36,868 nucleotides of DNA from a virus. Position numbers and translations under genes: made by a program. The DNA lies in the IMG/VR virus record IMGVR_UViG_3300029951_000276, positions 1-36,868 of that record, one strand, 5' to 3'. Below the pieces are notes generated by a model, which did no database searches, was not told the origin of the DNA, and worked only from the letters and a program-made list of their open reading frames with translations. Shown here piece after piece: positions 4,089-17,311 of the stretch. Numbering within the stretch: the stretch's first letter is position 1; each line of letters starts with the position of its first letter.

Positions 4089-5642
4089 ATGCAGAAGAAC
4101 AGAATAAGCATGGAATACTTGCACGCGCTACAAGCGGTATACTACCAAATAGATCGACGCGGTATAGTAGTAGACAAGCAGAGGCTACGAGATGCATCAC
4201 ACTATATTGATACAGACATTAATCGTCAATGCGCTATTGTCAGTAGTATCTGGAACATACCTTGCTACATCGGAGCCGCAAACAAACCGGAAGCTAAACT
4301 TGGGAGTAGTATTAATCTTAACAGCAGCAGCGGTGATAATACCCCTCTCGCACACTTAAAGCGGATGGGATTTACAATACCAAAGACAAGTGGGAGGGAT
4401 GAGGATGGAAACTACATATCAAAAGAATCTCTTGCGGAACTTACCCTGCAAAAGATATATGCAACAAATCAATTTAACGTCCCGGGAGGAGATCCAGCAA
4501 TTAGGGCGCTTCTTAGAATACGTGAACTTGGAACTCTCCGAGCGCGCTACATTAATGCAAACCTCTATCGTTCAGGAGGGTTCGAGTTATTTCTTACAAA
4601 TTATAATTGCGCAGGAACAGTTACAGGACGCAGGGGAAGCCGCAAACATTCTTTCGGTTTTGGGGGGAATGCACAAAATTTTCCAAAGCATGGAGAGCTT
4701 GCTAAGATATTTCGTAGATGCTTAGTAGCCCGCCCCGGTAAAATCCTACTAATGGTAGACCAGATGCAAGCCGAGGACTGGCCTACTAGCGCACTAGCTA
4801 ATAACACGGAGGCACTTGATGACTTACGTTCTGGTATTGATAGGCATAGGAAGTTGGGTTGCCTTATATTTGATATCCCCTGGGACCACTATACAGACTC
4901 TCAGTGGAAAGAATCTATTGAGCGATTCCTTGGCAAGAAAACTAGACACGCTAATAACTATGGTATGCGTGGCGGTACTATGTCTGACTCACTTGCTAAG
5001 GAAGGCTATTCACTAACTCCCCAACAATGCACCAACATCCTCACGAAAGTAAACCAAGTTGACCCCTCCGTAGACGGAGTATTTCACAAATACATAAAGG
5101 ACTGCTTATATGCGAATCGAACGCTCCGGACACCGTTTGGACGTGAACGTATCTTCTTCGGCCTCCGAGGTGGTGAAACAGGCTCGAATAATAAAATCTT
5201 CAACGAAGCTTACAGCTACATTCCTCAATCTACAGTTGGCGATAATAACGGATTTGCAGTCTATGAACTTGAAACCGGAAATGACTCCACACGAGGTAAA
5301 ATTATTCAAGAATGCCATGACTCAATCGTTCAGGAGATTGACGATTCTGTTGAATCTATCTGGAACTTTATGCAAGTCACAAAAGCGGCGTATTCTCGTA
5401 GAATCGTATTCCACAATGGGATTGAAGTTGAAATCCCAGTCGAAGGAGAAATTGCCTTTGACTTCTACAACACAGTAACTATTAAAGCTAGGAATGGCTC
5501 CAAAAAGCTGGAAGACATTACCTATCAAGATGTGCAAGCGGCTTACTACAAGTTAAAAGAGAATCAAGAAAAGGAGCGCCAGTCAGATGCCGCCACGCAA
5601 ACTCAGCATGAACTGGATCAGCAGCTATGCGGCGGCGCTTGA
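4089..5642 (+). CDS. Family A DNA polymerase, polymerase domain only
   Basis: 517 aa with no exonuclease domain. Visible family A landmarks in order are a thumb/palm entry with GTVTGRRGS (canonical TATGRLSS), NAQNFP (canonical NLQNIP), motif A around D224 (VDQMQAEDWP), motif B (RHANNYGMRGG, 286-296) and motif C H410-D411-S412. Motif B has His287 where the Pol I O-helix has its conserved Lys, and Tyr291 where E. coli Pol I has Phe762 (T7 also has Tyr). Motif C is HDS instead of HDE. The catalytic Asps are present, so it should be active. The missing proofreading domain is encoded at 1409-2536. The start has GAGGG only 3 bases upstream; Met8 at 4110 is an alternative. The 3' end overlaps the helicase gene by 56 bases. 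Confidence 0.85.
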   Translation: MQKNRISMEYLHALQAVYYQIDRRGIVVDKQRLRDASHYIDTDINRQCAIVSSIWNIPCYIGAANKPEAKLGSSINLNSSSGDNTPLAHLKRMGFTIPKTSGRDEDGNYISKESLAELTLQKIYATNQFNVPGGDPAIRALLRIRELGTLRARYINANLYRSGGFELFLTNYNCAGTVTGRRGSRKHSFGFGGNAQNFPKHGELAKIFRRCLVARPGKILLMVDQMQAEDWPTSALANNTEALDDLRSGIDRHRKLGCLIFDIPWDHYTDSQWKESIERFLGKKTRHANNYGMRGGTMSDSLAKEGYSLTPQQCTNILTKVNQVDPSVDGVFHKYIKDCLYANRTLRTPFGRERIFFGLRGGETGSNNKIFNEAYSYIPQSTVGDNNGFAVYELETGNDSTRGKIIQECHDSIVQEIDDSVESIWNFMQVTKAAYSRRIVFHNGIEVEIPVEGEIAFDFYNTVTIKARNGSKKLEDITYQDVQAAYYKLKENQEKERQSDAATQTQHELDQQLCGGA

Positions 5643-11836: not shown

Positions 11837-14008
11837 CTAGTTAACAGAACAAGAAACTCCGTAAGTAGCTCCAGCCACTGCGCCGTGGCTAATAGCAACA
11901 CCGCCAGTGCTTACAGTGTAGAACGTGAATGCCGCATCAATTGAGTTGGCCCGAGTGACTGAGCAAGTACTAATAGGTGTGACAAAAGAACAAGAAAGCG
12001 CATCCATAGCTGCCGTTGTAGTTGTTATAGTTCCACAACTCTTCATCACTAGTGGGCCATCACTTAGGGCTAACGTGGTGATCTGAACCCCGCCAATGGC
12101 ATAAGGCCCATGTCCAATATTAAACATACTATTATCATCGAAATCAACAGTAGCTCCGGCACTTGATAGAAAATGTAGTCCAGTTCCACCAACAGTTGAA
12201 GCCGCCCAAGTAGAACCTGCGCCTTGGCCAATCCATTCTATCTCTCCTCCGCCTCCTGTCGTTCCAACAATTATTCCACTAGTGAATAATGCTGTAGTTG
12301 CTGTGACAGTAAGTCCGTTGAATGCACTAGCATTAAGTAGAGTATTGTTTATATCTCCCTGACTGTCCGGTCCGGGAGTACTTGTTGCCATATTTGTGGG
12401 TGAGACAGTCCAGTTATTACTAGAGAATGGCATTACTGTTACATCGATCAATGTACCCTGCAAATTTACAGAATAAGAAGTTGTGCCAAGTCCGTTCATC
12501 GTTCCGCCGCCGATGTAGACGTTATTCAGCCCATTGGTGGCTGTAATGTCAGCATAGCCGGCTGGGGCTATGAGCATGTTATCGGTAAACGTCAGCCATG
12601 GCCATGCATTCGTTATGTAGATCGGCTCTTTGGAGGTCGTCTCGATGTTATTTAGACTGTATTGACCCTGCACCGATCCAGAGAGATTCAGCACTAATCC
12701 ATGCTCGAAATTTCCGCCGCCGTTTGAATTAACCTTATTGGATATCCACTTCCCTCCGCCAGAACTATCTTGATAGACTGCGGCACTGCCGACTGCTTCA
12801 GTTCGAGCACCAGCGGCAAATTCATTGCCGGACACAGTCCAATCTCCAGCATCGGAATCCACCGTATTCTGAATCCATAAGGCGCGCCGAACGGGATTAT
12901 CCAGTTCGGAATCCTTCATCGTCCAACGTGACCCGACACCCACATGAATATCGTCGTAGAACCCATTTACCTGAACGTTCTGGAGATTTATTCGTTGGAT
13001 ATCAAGCGTCGAGTTAGTGAATACTGCCGCACCCGCAGTGGGCGTGGTCGATGCTGTGTTCGTCAGGGAGATATTCTGGAATAATCCCGAGTTGGAGGTC
13101 ACCGTGAAAAGAACAGCCGTTGAGCTACCGCAAACAACATTGGAACTAAAGGTTCCGAGTGTTTGATCTGTAACACCATCTCCCTCTAAAATAACAGGAA
13201 CTCCAATAATGAACCCGCAATTAGCAGAAAAATAATTTCCAACGGGAAAATAGAGTCTACCAGCCCCTGCTGCGTCAAGAGCTACGATAGCTTTATTAAT
13301 AGCCGCCGAATCATCAGTAACCCCATCCCCTACTGCCCCATAATATTTAACATTAAACGACTGCATTGTAGAAACAGGTTGGCCGTTTACTTCTAGAAAA
13401 GAACCTAGAGGTTGGATTATATTCTGAGTCCCGGCGGGGTTTGTAATAATAGGCAAACCACCTACCGTAGCAAAAGGTTCCCAACCTCCCGCAGTAAATA
13501 CTAGCATTTCCTGTGAGGTAGTATCATACAACATACCACCCTGATTCTGTGGAGGTGCAGCGACTTGGTTTGTATTATAAACCTTCGAGATAGTAGTAGG
13601 TTGCGCAGGAAGTGGAGGCCACGCATTTGCTCCGGTGATAATAGGAACAATATTAAGAGTAGTGCCACTCACCGCGACATTAACAACCGCGCATTGCAGG
13701 GAAGCATTAGGGCATACGCTAAAAAGCCAGGTACTGCCAACCGGCGAGATAGAGGTATTCGATGGAAGGATGAGACTAAAATTTCCACCCGAATCAGAAG
13801 TCACAGTAGCAGGTAACTGGTTAAAAGCACCACCAGTCCATACGAAAGGAGGAGATTTACCGGGAGTATTTTGAAACACCGCAGTGATAGTAGCCGCACT
13901 CCAAGTATTTCCAAGCGGGTCTACAAGTGTCCCGCTGACTGTGGTAGATTGGGCGCTCGCGGTAATAGCACCGAGGCCGAGGATAAGATACCAAATGTAC
14001 TTCAACAT
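11837..14008 (-). CDS. Tailspike with pectate-lyase-like beta-helix and signal peptide, 723 aa
   Basis: I chose ATG 14008; a GTG at 14017 would add MAL, but 14008 gives the cleaner signal peptide and has GGTGG upstream. The signal peptide has a LILGLGAITASA|Q end. Residues ~22-130 share the N-terminal domain plan of the neighbouring fibre. From ~218 the sequence FNVKYYGAVGDGVTDD is the classic start of a Pectate_lyase_3 right-handed beta-helix, running through Asn/Gly-rich coils to ~600. The C-terminal ~100 residues hold Cys pairs and could be a trimerising or binding domain. Such spikes bind and often cut surface polysaccharide. Substrate and catalytic residues cannot be read from sequence. 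Confidence 0.75.
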   Translation of the reverse strand: MLKYIWYLILGLGAITASAQSTTVSGTLVDPLGNTWSAATITAVFQNTPGKSPPFVWTGGAFNQLPATVTSDSGGNFSLILPSNTSISPVGSTWLFSVCPNASLQCAVVNVAVSGTTLNIVPIITGANAWPPLPAQPTTISKVYNTNQVAAPPQNQGGMLYDTTSQEMLVFTAGGWEPFATVGGLPIITNPAGTQNIIQPLGSFLEVNGQPVSTMQSFNVKYYGAVGDGVTDDSAAINKAIVALDAAGAGRLYFPVGNYFSANCGFIIGVPVILEGDGVTDQTLGTFSSNVVCGSSTAVLFTVTSNSGLFQNISLTNTASTTPTAGAAVFTNSTLDIQRINLQNVQVNGFYDDIHVGVGSRWTMKDSELDNPVRRALWIQNTVDSDAGDWTVSGNEFAAGARTEAVGSAAVYQDSSGGGKWISNKVNSNGGGNFEHGLVLNLSGSVQGQYSLNNIETTSKEPIYITNAWPWLTFTDNMLIAPAGYADITATNGLNNVYIGGGTMNGLGTTSYSVNLQGTLIDVTVMPFSSNNWTVSPTNMATSTPGPDSQGDINNTLLNASAFNGLTVTATTALFTSGIIVGTTGGGGEIEWIGQGAGSTWAASTVGGTGLHFLSSAGATVDFDDNSMFNIGHGPYAIGGVQITTLALSDGPLVMKSCGTITTTTAAMDALSCSFVTPISTCSVTRANSIDAAFTFYTVSTGGVAISHGAVAGATYGVSCSVN

Positions 14009-14106
14009 GAGGGCCACCAGTAAGCGTCGTTATTAAATCCAAGGAAGTTATAGTCTAGGAACCAATGGGTCTCTATGCAGTGAAGGTCTTCATTCCCGTC
14101 TTTCAT
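14002..14106 (-). CDS. Putative 34-aa peptide between ATP-grasp and tailspike genes
   Basis: A short frame starts at ATG 14106 by ATGA overlap with the ATP-grasp stop, with GGGA about 6 bases before it, and ends at TGA 14004-14002, overlapping the tailspike ATG. It exactly fills the gap between the two genes, as coupled small phage genes do. The peptide is acidic and aromatic (four Trp or Tyr near the end, ...NDAYWWPSC) with two Cys. It could be a substrate or partner of the ligase upstream, or only a coupling ORF. There is no homology evidence. Confidence 0.4.
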   Translation of the reverse strand: MKDGNEDLHCIETHWFLDYNFLGFNNDAYWWPSC

Positions 14107-15377
14107 AGCAGTCCCATTCTACTAAGTTCATAGTATCTCTGAGTCGTGGTCTTCTGTAGGTCAGTGCGGATTTGCATATTAGGGAGCTTGATATCCTCGA
14201 TCTTTGCGTCTACTATCTCCCACGCATCTCCAATGCTATTTCCGTAGCCAAGTGGAACCGCGATAAATCCACTATGCCCTGCTGTTACTAGCTCGCCCTT
14301 CTCCAACATAACATCATACATATAAGTAGAACCATACTGCCCAGGCCCTATTCCTTTTACCGGCACTCCCTGCGGATGCTTGCCCTTAATCTCGGTAGGA
14401 TACGGCGGAATACTAAGACGAGTCCCGGCTCCGAACTCGCCACGCCAACTCTCATCCGGCACTTGCCCAGTTGCTACTTTCTGAAGCATCTCGCCAAAGT
14501 TTCCGCCGTACATATTAATAAGAGTCGCACTTGCATCATACCCAAAACGCGGAGTCCACTCTAGCCCGTAGAGTCCAGAATCAGTTGCAATAGTATTAAG
14601 ATCAATCATTCCACAATAGCCGACGCTCTTTAGATAGTCCTTCATCTTGCCAAGACCATTCTTGAATAGCTCGCTGGACTCCCGCAAGTAGAACACCAGA
14701 TTCCCGGCACAACCAGTATTCGGTCCGTGATTCCCGTTCATAAACTTCTTTTCTTCTAGGGTCACATTTACTAAGTAGAAGTTATCCCCATTAAAATACC
14801 CCTCTACTGATACCTCGGTGCCCTTAATAAACTCCTGCAATACAAACGGAGCGCCCTTAGTTTTAGCATAAAGCTTATCAATACAAGCCAGCATATCTTC
14901 AGGACTACTGGCTACATAAGTAGTATCAGTATCATTCTCCTGCCCGCCATCTGGTTTGTATACGAACCTCTTATTCGTCTTCTTAATATGCGCCTTAGCA
15001 GCACCTAGCTCGGAAAATCTTTCATATGGCGGCACTTGTATTCCGCACTCCTCCATAGCTTCCAGACCAAACATTCTATCATCTTCAACAGCACAATTAA
15101 AAGCGCCATCGCCAATAGTAGGACAGAGCGTTGCGCTATACTCTGCTTGACGCTCGCGCCCAGTGAGATCGAAGATACTAAGATCGTATTTCCCATAATT
15201 AGGATACCCTTTACTACCGCGCGCCCGGATATAAGGAGAAGGGACTATGCCTTTGAGAATGTTCTCGTAATCTGGTTCTGTGAGGAATGTATCTACTTTG
15301 TGCCCTTCTTCGAGCAGCCGCAAAGCAAACCAAAACCCATAGCCAGTGTAACTATTAAGTGCAATCCTCAATGCCAT
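14103..15377 (-). CDS. PurD-like ATP-grasp ligase
   Basis: 424 aa with a strong GGGAG site. It has ATP-grasp landmarks: FVYKPDG with K141, QEFIKGTEVSVEGY (181-194), then KKFMNGNHGPNTGCAGN (210-226), the equivalent of PurD's 'DHK...GPNTGGMG'. A final metal-binding segment follows (MIDLNTI, GLEWTPRFGYD with E273). PurD's E-x-N-x-RFG has become E-W-T-P-RFG. The N-terminal part lacks PurD's GGREHAL motif, so the usual amine substrate is probably different. ATP-grasp enzymes join a carboxylate to an amine through an acyl-phosphate. In this late operon, between ejection and spike genes and flanked by a 41-aa and a 34-aa ORF, it may modify a peptide, a virion protein or a cell-wall/nucleotide metabolite. 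The fold is secure; the substrate is unknown. Confidence 0.75.
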   Translation of the reverse strand: MALRIALNSYTGYGFWFALRLLEEGHKVDTFLTEPDYENILKGIVPSPYIRARGSKGYPNYGKYDLSIFDLTGRERQAEYSATLCPTIGDGAFNCAVEDDRMFGLEAMEECGIQVPPYERFSELGAAKAHIKKTNKRFVYKPDGGQENDTDTTYVASSPEDMLACIDKLYAKTKGAPFVLQEFIKGTEVSVEGYFNGDNFYLVNVTLEEKKFMNGNHGPNTGCAGNLVFYLRESSELFKNGLGKMKDYLKSVGYCGMIDLNTIATDSGLYGLEWTPRFGYDASATLINMYGGNFGEMLQKVATGQVPDESWRGEFGAGTRLSIPPYPTEIKGKHPQGVPVKGIGPGQYGSTYMYDVMLEKGELVTAGHSGFIAVPLGYGNSIGDAWEIVDAKIEDIKLPNMQIRTDLQKTTTQRYYELSRMGLL

Positions 15378-15398
15378 AATCCCATCTCCCTTGGTTAA

Positions 15399-15524
15399 TT
15401 ACTGCTTGCTAGTAGTCTTCATTGACAACTTCGGCGCTTTGGAGGTATTGCTCTTGTTGCACTCCACGCTCTTAATACATGCACGTACTGATTCCCGGCT
15501 CTTAGTTGCTTCCTGTCCAGCCAT
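15399..15524 (-). CDS. Small basic peptide, 41 aa, upstream of ATP-grasp gene
   Basis: ATG 15524 follows a near-ideal AAGGAG site 7 bases away, and TAA is at 15401-15399. The peptide is Lys/Ser/Thr-rich (7 Lys, 9 Ser) with two Cys four residues apart (ACIKSVEC) and a tail of SMKTTSKQ. It ends 21 bases before the ATP-grasp start and is almost certainly translated. No family recognised. It could be a peptide substrate or a small virion component; neither is shown. Confidence 0.6.
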   Translation of the reverse strand: MAGQEATKSRESVRACIKSVECNKSNTSKAPKLSMKTTSKQ

Positions 15525-15535
15525 TTTATATCTCC

Positions 15536-17311
15536 TTAGTAGTTAAAGTCGTTGGCGTTTAGTGGATTGTTACTATCAGGCTTTGGTCTAGTACGCCTGA
15601 ATCTTTTTGGCTTGCCGCTTGCGCTATCGGCTTTGGTTGGCAGTATCTGATGAGAAGCAACACCACCAATCCCATACGGAGTAGTATCAGCCATCGCATC
15701 TCTAGCAAGCGGCTTCCACGCATCTGGATGCCTGTTATCAGTGTGCGCTGCTTTATATGCATCCTGCGCGCCCTGAATTAGCATGTTGGCATTCGGCCCC
15801 ATAATCTGGCCTGCTAGGTTATTACGTGCCGCGCCTCTAGTATATCCAGTCGCTACTCCGAAACTTGCAAGATGGCTCAGACTATCAATTGTATTCAGAG
15901 CTATTCGTGCGGCACTTGCAGCATTTTGTCTTCCAGCGAGCGCGTCATAAACAACACCTGCTGGAGTTGCTTCAACTCTATTAGCAAGATGCTTACCCGG
16001 ATCATCCCAGTCGTGGCCTATTAGTAGCCGCTCTGCTTCGTAGAGCGTAGCCCCTAGTACTGGAAACGCCATACTCATAAGCCCGATGTTCCTAGCTATT
16101 CCTACAAAGTCCCCTTGCTGGTACTGACGCTTGAATACATTCTGGATAAACCGTGCCTGATTAGCGGTGTATGAATGGAATGCGCCCATTACTCTAAATA
16201 TAGGACTGCTTTGTCCAAGTGCGGTACGTCCTTCTCCTTGATTCAAGAATGCCCGTACATTCGTCCCGTGGTAATAAGCCTTCTGTATATCACTAGCATC
16301 AAGCTGAAACTTCTGCGCTTGTATCTTCATAGGATCAAGCCCGAGTTCTCTTAGTACCGGGAGCGCCTTTTTACCATTCCCTCGTGCCAGATTCTGCACC
16401 GCCTCATCCGCTGCTAACTTACTCGCGTGCGCGCTCATCAGAAGAGTATTATATCTAACAGAAGACATTCCAGGTATGTACATGTTCTTGTGAATAAACT
16501 CACCAACACTACCGGGCATGTATTGCGAGATCTTACCAGCCTTAAAAGCCTCATGCTCCCTATATCCATTCATTGTTAGTTCGCTAATAGCGTTCGTTGC
16601 AAGTACAGTAGCCTCGGCTCCCTTGCGTGTACTGGGGTTGAAAGTCTGGTCCAGTACTTTTGCGTAGGTCTGAAATCCGTCACTCATCAGTATATTCAGA
16701 TTAGAAGTAAGATGCGGAATAGCGGCCTTGTACGCAAGTATCGACTGATGTACTCGCCCAGCCTTCTCGATAAGATTAGGGTCACGATACTTAGAAGGCG
16801 GGGTCTGAAACCTAGTATCCTCGTTCCCCTTCCTCATATCTCGGTCGAACTTAGAAAGCCCCTCTGCATCCGGTGATTCCTTGAACAGAATATTAAGATG
16901 GTCCGCTAGAATATCCGCCCGATTCTTACCAACAGTCTTCTCAACATGCTTAAGCACCGCTTGTATTCCAGAACGATTCGGCCCAAATACATTCTCCGAT
17001 GCTTGCTTCTGCGCTTCTTTAGTAATATCAGCCGCAGGCTTTGTACCGCCTGCTAGTTTAGCTTGCTCCACGCCCTTAGAAGTAAGCTGGTTTACCTGCT
17101 CTTTATACGGCCCTTGGTAAGTATCCCACAGGTGCTTAGCAGCAGGGATATCTTGGAATGCGGCTTCCGGCCTAAACATACCATGATACAGTCCAGTCTC
17201 AACTCCCTCGGCTACTCTATTAACAGCCACTGGATTAGCAGCAACCTTACTTCCGATCTTTTCAACAGCACCCTTAGCAAGATCCGCAACCGCGTTATAA
17301 AATCCGCCCAT
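15536..17311 (-). CDS. Internal virion (ejection) protein, 591 aa
   Basis: ATG 17311 with an AGGAG site. Large, mixed helical protein with Ala-rich segments, a hydrophobic stretch FVGIARNIGLMSMAFPVLGATLYEA around 410-435, and a basic C-terminus (KPKRFRRTRPKP). It follows three other proteins with the look of podovirus ejection proteins, in the order adaptor, A, B, C, D. By analogy with P22 gp7/gp20/gp16 or T7 gp14-16 it would be injected with the DNA and span the envelope. The call rests on position, size and composition; no catalytic motif is seen. Confidence 0.5.
   Translation of the reverse strand: MGGFYNAVADLAKGAVEKIGSKVAANPVAVNRVAEGVETGLYHGMFRPEAAFQDIPAAKHLWDTYQGPYKEQVNQLTSKGVEQAKLAGGTKPAADITKEAQKQASENVFGPNRSGIQAVLKHVEKTVGKNRADILADHLNILFKESPDAEGLSKFDRDMRKGNEDTRFQTPPSKYRDPNLIEKAGRVHQSILAYKAAIPHLTSNLNILMSDGFQTYAKVLDQTFNPSTRKGAEATVLATNAISELTMNGYREHEAFKAGKISQYMPGSVGEFIHKNMYIPGMSSVRYNTLLMSAHASKLAADEAVQNLARGNGKKALPVLRELGLDPMKIQAQKFQLDASDIQKAYYHGTNVRAFLNQGEGRTALGQSSPIFRVMGAFHSYTANQARFIQNVFKRQYQQGDFVGIARNIGLMSMAFPVLGATLYEAERLLIGHDWDDPGKHLANRVEATPAGVVYDALAGRQNAASAARIALNTIDSLSHLASFGVATGYTRGAARNNLAGQIMGPNANMLIQGAQDAYKAAHTDNRHPDAWKPLARDAMADTTPYGIGGVASHQILPTKADSASGKPKRFRRTRPKPDSNNPLNANDFNY

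Follow-up and report, generated by a model that had tools for sequence, protein, structure and literature searches.

A 36.9-kb phage record (IMG/VR record IMGVR_UViG_3300029951_000276, positions 1 to 36,868; hereafter the window) encodes on its minus strand, in this order, a conserved 591-residue protein, a 41-residue peptide (peptide A), a 424-residue ATP-grasp ligase with the fold of PurD, a 34-residue peptide (peptide B), and a tail spike. Our analysis suggests that the ligase and peptide A, which many uncultured phages encode together, belong to a phage system, not described so far, in which something is attached to a small peptide. We give a probability of about 0.45 to the reading that the two form a phage-encoded peptide-conjugation pair, in which the ligase would activate a carboxylate and join it through an amide bond to lysine amines of peptide A. 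That the ligase and peptide A are partners is well supported; the substrate and the chemistry are what we infer. In bacteria, pairs of an ATP-grasp enzyme and a small peptide give rise to modified peptides. A literature search, which reached few subscription journals, found no description of PurD-like ligases of phages, of the ligase together with peptide A, of a PurD-fold ligase in peptide modification, or of such a pair within a phage virion operon.

Peptide A and its linkage to the ligase

Peptide A (15399..15524, minus strand; MAGQEATKSRESVRACIKSVECNKSNTSKAPKLSMKTTSKQ) is composed of a conserved head and a lysine-rich tail and probably acts as a partner or a substrate for the ligase (14103..15377, minus strand). 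Its Shine-Dalgarno sequence AAGGAG (15532..15537, minus strand) has equivalents in relatives. Open reading frames (ORFs) starting with M[AS]G are located directly upstream of the ligase at 36 loci, some of them near-identical, and at another nine loci peptide A is upstream with an inserted gene between it and the ligase. In the ligase tree, all carriers of peptide A fall within one fully supported clade of 30 rows, 29 of which have the peptide. The head is conserved as M[AS]GQ[SA]A....EA.....VQ. Neighbouring ligase clades have other small ORFs at the place of peptide A (MTAPHxHT..., MPGRAA..., MSYFG...). In records whose ligases are more distant, the profile of peptide A gave weak matches at the same place (E 1e-5 to 3e-3), and therefore some of the small ORFs there may be distant forms of the peptide.

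The linkage was also observed in an independent sample of 47 records, which were picked solely for the gene of an HExxE protein described below; 27 of them contain the ligase and 20 do not. All 11 peptide A matches were in ligase-holding records, on the same strand and 8–367 nt upstream of the ligase, compared to none in the 20 ligase-free records (Fisher p 7.5e-4, not corrected for relatedness). The record G007 was a candidate for peptide A without a ligase, as the ligase search was negative there. This was ruled out, because the gene that follows peptide A encodes a 438-residue protein that the profile search had missed but that is homologous, though remotely, to the ligase over its full length (97.4%, E 9e-12). 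Among the loci and records examined, peptide A without a ligase homologue was not found. A small peptide specific to the enzyme, which characterizes the peptide-conjugating class of ATP-grasp enzymes, is thus encoded together with the ligase.

The comparison of codons 2–21 of peptide A in 32 sequences provided a ratio of non-synonymous to synonymous changes (pN/pS) of 0.58 in frame, where synonymous sites are saturated, versus 1.17 and 1.40 in the other frames, and third positions are the most variable. Judged from its sequence, the 41-residue ORF is a genuine gene under purifying selection. The tail, which begins after residue 22, contains 18% Lys, 16% Gly, 13% Ser and 5% hydrophobic or aromatic residues, and is probably disordered. 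At least three lysines are present in the tail of each of the 38 distinct A peptides. The Lys:Arg ratio is 195:15 (13:1) in the tails, as opposed to 1041:547 (1.9:1) in the ligases (p 6e-19, with residues treated as independent); electrostatics alone would not obviously exclude arginine from the tail. The tail encoded in the window has neither Asp nor Glu, as is the case for 4 of the 38 tails.

Another family of small basic peptides, MPLKKGxSxK...QAIAIAxSKAGK, adjoins or is near the ligase at L107:5796-5975 and L055:5519-5683, and upstream of it in L294 and L295. Its members are also hypothetical proteins in several cultured phages, for example Pseudomonas phage TC6 and Thalassomonas phage BA3.

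Fold, active site and relatives of the ligase

Pfam assigned GARS_A (E 7e-13) and, more weakly, GARS_C to the ligase, and a search of solved structures with a profile of ten close relatives placed glycinamide ribonucleotide (GAR) synthetases at the top (2yw2, E 2e-20). The AlphaFold model of the ligase, calculated from a 75-sequence input, has a mean predicted local distance difference test (pLDDT) score of 95.4. Foldseek matched the model to GAR synthetase across its whole length, with a template-modelling score of 0.77 and 19% sequence identity; the subsequent matches were biotin carboxylase and PylC. These results indicate that the ligase, as modelled, carries the complete PurD architecture, with the N, ATP-grasp A/B and C domains and the ATP/Mg-binding residues, and they agree with the sequence-only reading of this DNA, which had recognized an ATP-grasp ligase. 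The phage amidoligase domains PF14395 (COOH-NH2 ligase) and PF12224 (Amidoligase_2) were not among the Pfam matches of the ligase up to an E-value of 1, and PHROGs contains no family for the ligase, peptide A or peptide B.

In PurD of Aquifex, the modelled ATP/Mg contacts are Glu100, Lys103, Lys143, Glu185, Glu192 and Lys214, and glycine is contacted by Asp212, Arg287 and Glu292 (PMC8880213). We transferred the contact residues to the ligase through the structure-profile alignment and tabulated them in a 75-row alignment of relatives. The ATP/Mg residues of the ligase are E98, R101, K141, Q181, K210, D259 and E273, and the acyl-site residues are E208 and R277. Residues E98, R101, K141, Q181, E208, K210 and R277 are invariant across all rows, as is E273; D259, N261 and G279 are also kept, T275 is present in every row but one, and the equivalent of Glu192 is retained in 57 of the 75 relatives. 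The residues that had been read from the sequence (K141, H217-GPNTG-222, E273-W-T275 and the missing GGREHA) were confirmed by the table.

The ligase shares with PurD (PF01071, PF02843; 2YW2) the whole fold, the domain order, the ATP/Mg site, and the arginine that binds the glycine carboxylate (R277 for Arg287). In contrast to PurD, Asp212 is replaced by Glu (E208) in 75 of 75 rows, and Glu is found at the position of Glu292 in none of them, with A282 in the window. The PS00184 signature, R-[LF]-G-D-P-E-x-[EQIM], is likewise absent from all 75, the window ligase reading RFGYDASA. Furthermore, the window ligase has no GGREHA loop, contains E-x-T instead of E-x-N, and has its gene in a virion operon beside that of a peptide. 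By these residues, the ligase has an intact ATP-grasp site with an altered acyl pocket and is not PurD.

Profile scans of viral contigs identified more than 140 ligase loci, together with cellular ones. The phage loci often have genes of large virion-operon proteins on one side and a spike or tail-fibre gene on the other, and one prophage-like locus is in a metagenome-assembled genome (MAG) of Sulfuriferula (L137). A genome scan provided archaeal and bacterial relatives with about 26–31% identity to the ligase, including the haloarchaeal L145. The cellular homologues with the same active-site signature (L138-L152), mostly from MAGs of DPANN archaea, Deltaproteobacteria and Planctomycetota, form by sequence an uncharacterised PurD-like family, for which no associated peptide, consistent neighbours or functional hint was found. 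Brown et al. judged haloarchaeal 'extra' PurD-like proteins without PS00184 not to be GAR synthetases (PMC3261824). Like the ligase, these proteins lack PS00184 and the N-terminal P-loop; unlike it, they are cellular, with no known function. They may belong to the same family as the ligase, as deduced from the homologue L145 and not from those exact proteins.

Phages also encode ligases of other families. The amidoligase, glutamine amidotransferase and ATP-grasp cluster of LUZ24-like phages is located among early genes (PMC3890496), and R2K ligases are predicted to modify peptides or proteins (PMC4431377, PMC7824862). None of them is PurD-like with an MxGQ peptide.

Peptide B and other neighbours of the ligase

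Peptide B (14002..14106, minus strand) is acidic and aromatic and ends with ...DAYWWPSC. Its start codon shares the sequence ATGA with the stop codon of the ligase, and its own stop lies across the ATG at 14008 of the spike gene (11837..14008, minus strand), which encodes a pectate-lyase-like domain and has Pfam PF12708 and PHROG tail spike matches. From this arrangement, spike translation is probably coupled to peptide B. The three ORFs, including the Shine-Dalgarno sequence of peptide A, are as the sequence-only reading had described them.

Short acidic ORFs after the ligase or directly before the spike are present in a minority of relatives. They are of the YWW type in L002, L010, L073, L077, L080 and the window, contain WW in L108, L122 and G007, are of the NFYN type in L093 and L096, and are very acidic in L112-L121. 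The acidic pair from L115 and L121 has a pN/pS of 0.13 in frame versus 1.93 and 2.58 off frame, and the amino acids of the NFYN ends are identical despite several synonymous changes. In many relatives peptide B is missing, and the spike start or another gene immediately follows the ligase, whereas in L080 and G007 peptide B precedes the spike although another gene separates it from the ligase. These comparisons indicate a real gene for peptide B, but an optional one, which may act as a coupling ORF ahead of the spike. For most YWW cases it is possible that the motif is only the spike Shine-Dalgarno sequence (GGTGG); however, the WW of G007, L108 and L122 is positioned away from the start site, and the codons vary synonymously. 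The data do not decide whether peptide B is a candidate carboxylate donor or a spike coupling ORF.

It had been proposed from the sequence that the ligase, framed by two small ORFs, adds amino acids to or cross-links a small peptide or a virion or spike component, which may be the case. Peptide A was seen only with a ligase homologue. A cassette with two peptides of equal standing was rejected because most relatives have no peptide B, whose position follows the start of the spike gene. Nevertheless, both small ORFs appear to be real when amino acid conservation is compared with that of DNA, the ORFs related to peptide B being conserved in frame. For the 41-residue ORF within its clade, we encountered none of the grounds on which the proposal was to be abandoned, namely related ligases without the small ORFs, no purifying selection, or a close match of the ligase to a characterised PurD.

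The gene of the 591-residue virion-operon protein (15536..17311, minus strand) is located directly 5' of peptide A and is syntenic in relatives. It has no Pfam family above the cut-off and no PHROG match, so the earlier label of 'ejection protein genes' for the upstream neighbours was based on position. A nine-row alignment of this large neighbour was too divergent for scanning, and a scan with a closer alignment returned known records only.

A protein of about 126 residues with an invariant HE..E motif adjoins the ligase in L003, L004, L009 and many other phages. Its family comprises the example L153:5001-5378 (= L004:7275-7655) and 79 other loci, and the ligase is within 5 kb at 32 of the 80. 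The model of the HExxE protein has a pLDDT of 97, and its fold resembles the zincins SprT, PprI and CapP weakly (best E 0.07). The family has no matches in PHROGs, Pfam or cultured phage records, and no member is encoded in the window record, which may be incomplete. The pairing of a ligase with a protease is suggestive, as it would fit peptide maturation.

In G007 (L262 minus strand, G007:C1:5000-16500), the 438-residue ligase homologue (L262:7224-8537) has no Pfam match; next come a GNAT acetyltransferase and then, ahead of the spike, a micropeptide that contains WW. Elsewhere in the window, the translations read as a split family A DNA polymerase (1403-2536 and 4089-5642, plus strand), apparently an exonuclease-like and a polymerase-like ORF with small genes between them.

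Proposed reaction and alternative explanations

Based on the homology with PurD, in which a carboxylate is activated and then attacked by an amine (PMC8880213), the same carboxylate-to-acyl-phosphate activation and amine attack are expected of the ligase. The ligase would bind ATP and Mg and turn a small carboxylate, possibly an amino acid or, where present, peptide B, into an acyl phosphate, the step that glycine undergoes in PurD. The acyl group would then be passed to amines of peptide A, most likely to the side chains of the lysine-rich tail, with the conserved head as the recognition element. The fold, the intact ATP/Mg site, the loss of the PurD signature, the linkage of and selection on peptide A, and its lysine bias support these steps, and the conserved, co-inherited and lysine-rich peptide A is the most economical amine acceptor. 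Production is presumably late, since the pair is encoded in the virion operon. We speculate that the product is a virion part, an ejected factor, or an aid to lysis or entry.

Several points weigh against peptide conjugation. The role of peptide A as the acceptor is deduced from linkage only, and a lysine-rich tail also suits the binding of DNA, RNA or acidic proteins. More distant ligase clades have no A-like ORF in the neighbourhood examined, and therefore the general substrate of the ligase family may be something else. It is less probable, but a serious alternative, that the target of the ligase is not peptide A but, for example, the spike, a protein of the host or a virion protein encoded nearby; peptide A would then serve as an adaptor, a chaperone or a small protein of the virion. 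Peptide A also directly follows a conserved virion-operon gene, and the distant ligases that lack it are still located among virion, spike or lysis genes; nevertheless, the matches of peptide A were beside ligases only, and its tail is lysine-specific rather than generally basic. A small-molecule ligase producing a modified nucleotide, an amino acid conjugate or an envelope precursor, with peptide A as a regulator or unrelated passenger, is unlikely. The nearest folds (PurD, biotin carboxylase and PylC) act on small molecules, and the cellular homologues have neither a peptide nor consistent neighbours, but no linked metabolic genes were recognised around the phage loci examined, and the strict linkage of peptide A would be left unexplained.

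Internal amide or ester rings formed by the ligase in peptide A, as in the graspetide class of ribosomally synthesized and post-translationally modified peptides, are highly improbable. The locus does resemble graspetide loci, in which a small precursor with a conserved N-terminal and a variable C-terminal part is encoded 5' of an ATP-grasp ligase (PMC8939145). However, the ligase has no RimK-type Pfam match, and Pfam and Foldseek place it with GARS and PurD rather than with the RimK/MvdD-type ligases of graspetides. Graspetide cores combine Ser, Thr or Lys with Asp or Glu for ring formation, whereas the lysine-rich tail is often acid-poor, and the pair is encoded in a phage virion operon. Since the ligase family differs and the window tail has no ring-forming acids, we do not classify the pair as a graspetide system. 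Purine synthesis by a phage PurD has a negligible probability, in agreement with the doubt expressed in the sequence-only reading. The closest solved relative is PurD, but the ligase scores 63 bits against the NCBIfam purD equivalog, below the cut-off of 288 bits, and the haloarchaeal 'extra' proteins, which have the same losses, are not regarded as GAR synthetases either (PMC3261824). An auxiliary purine-synthesis gene was therefore rejected on the equivalog score and the signature residues.

An extension of the conjugation reading, which we regard as very unlikely, is a two-peptide system in which the ligase would activate the conserved C-terminus of the acidic peptide B (YWW, LPGL or NFYN types) and join it to lysines of the basic peptide A, while phages without peptide B would use another carboxylate. 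If true, an enzyme with the PurD fold would carry out a tagging reaction that is encoded by a virus. The substrate question is directly testable with two short genes. If peptide A is modified, many uncultured phages would carry a conjugation chemistry, and a group of 'PurD-like' proteins that are now annotated by homology would gain a function.

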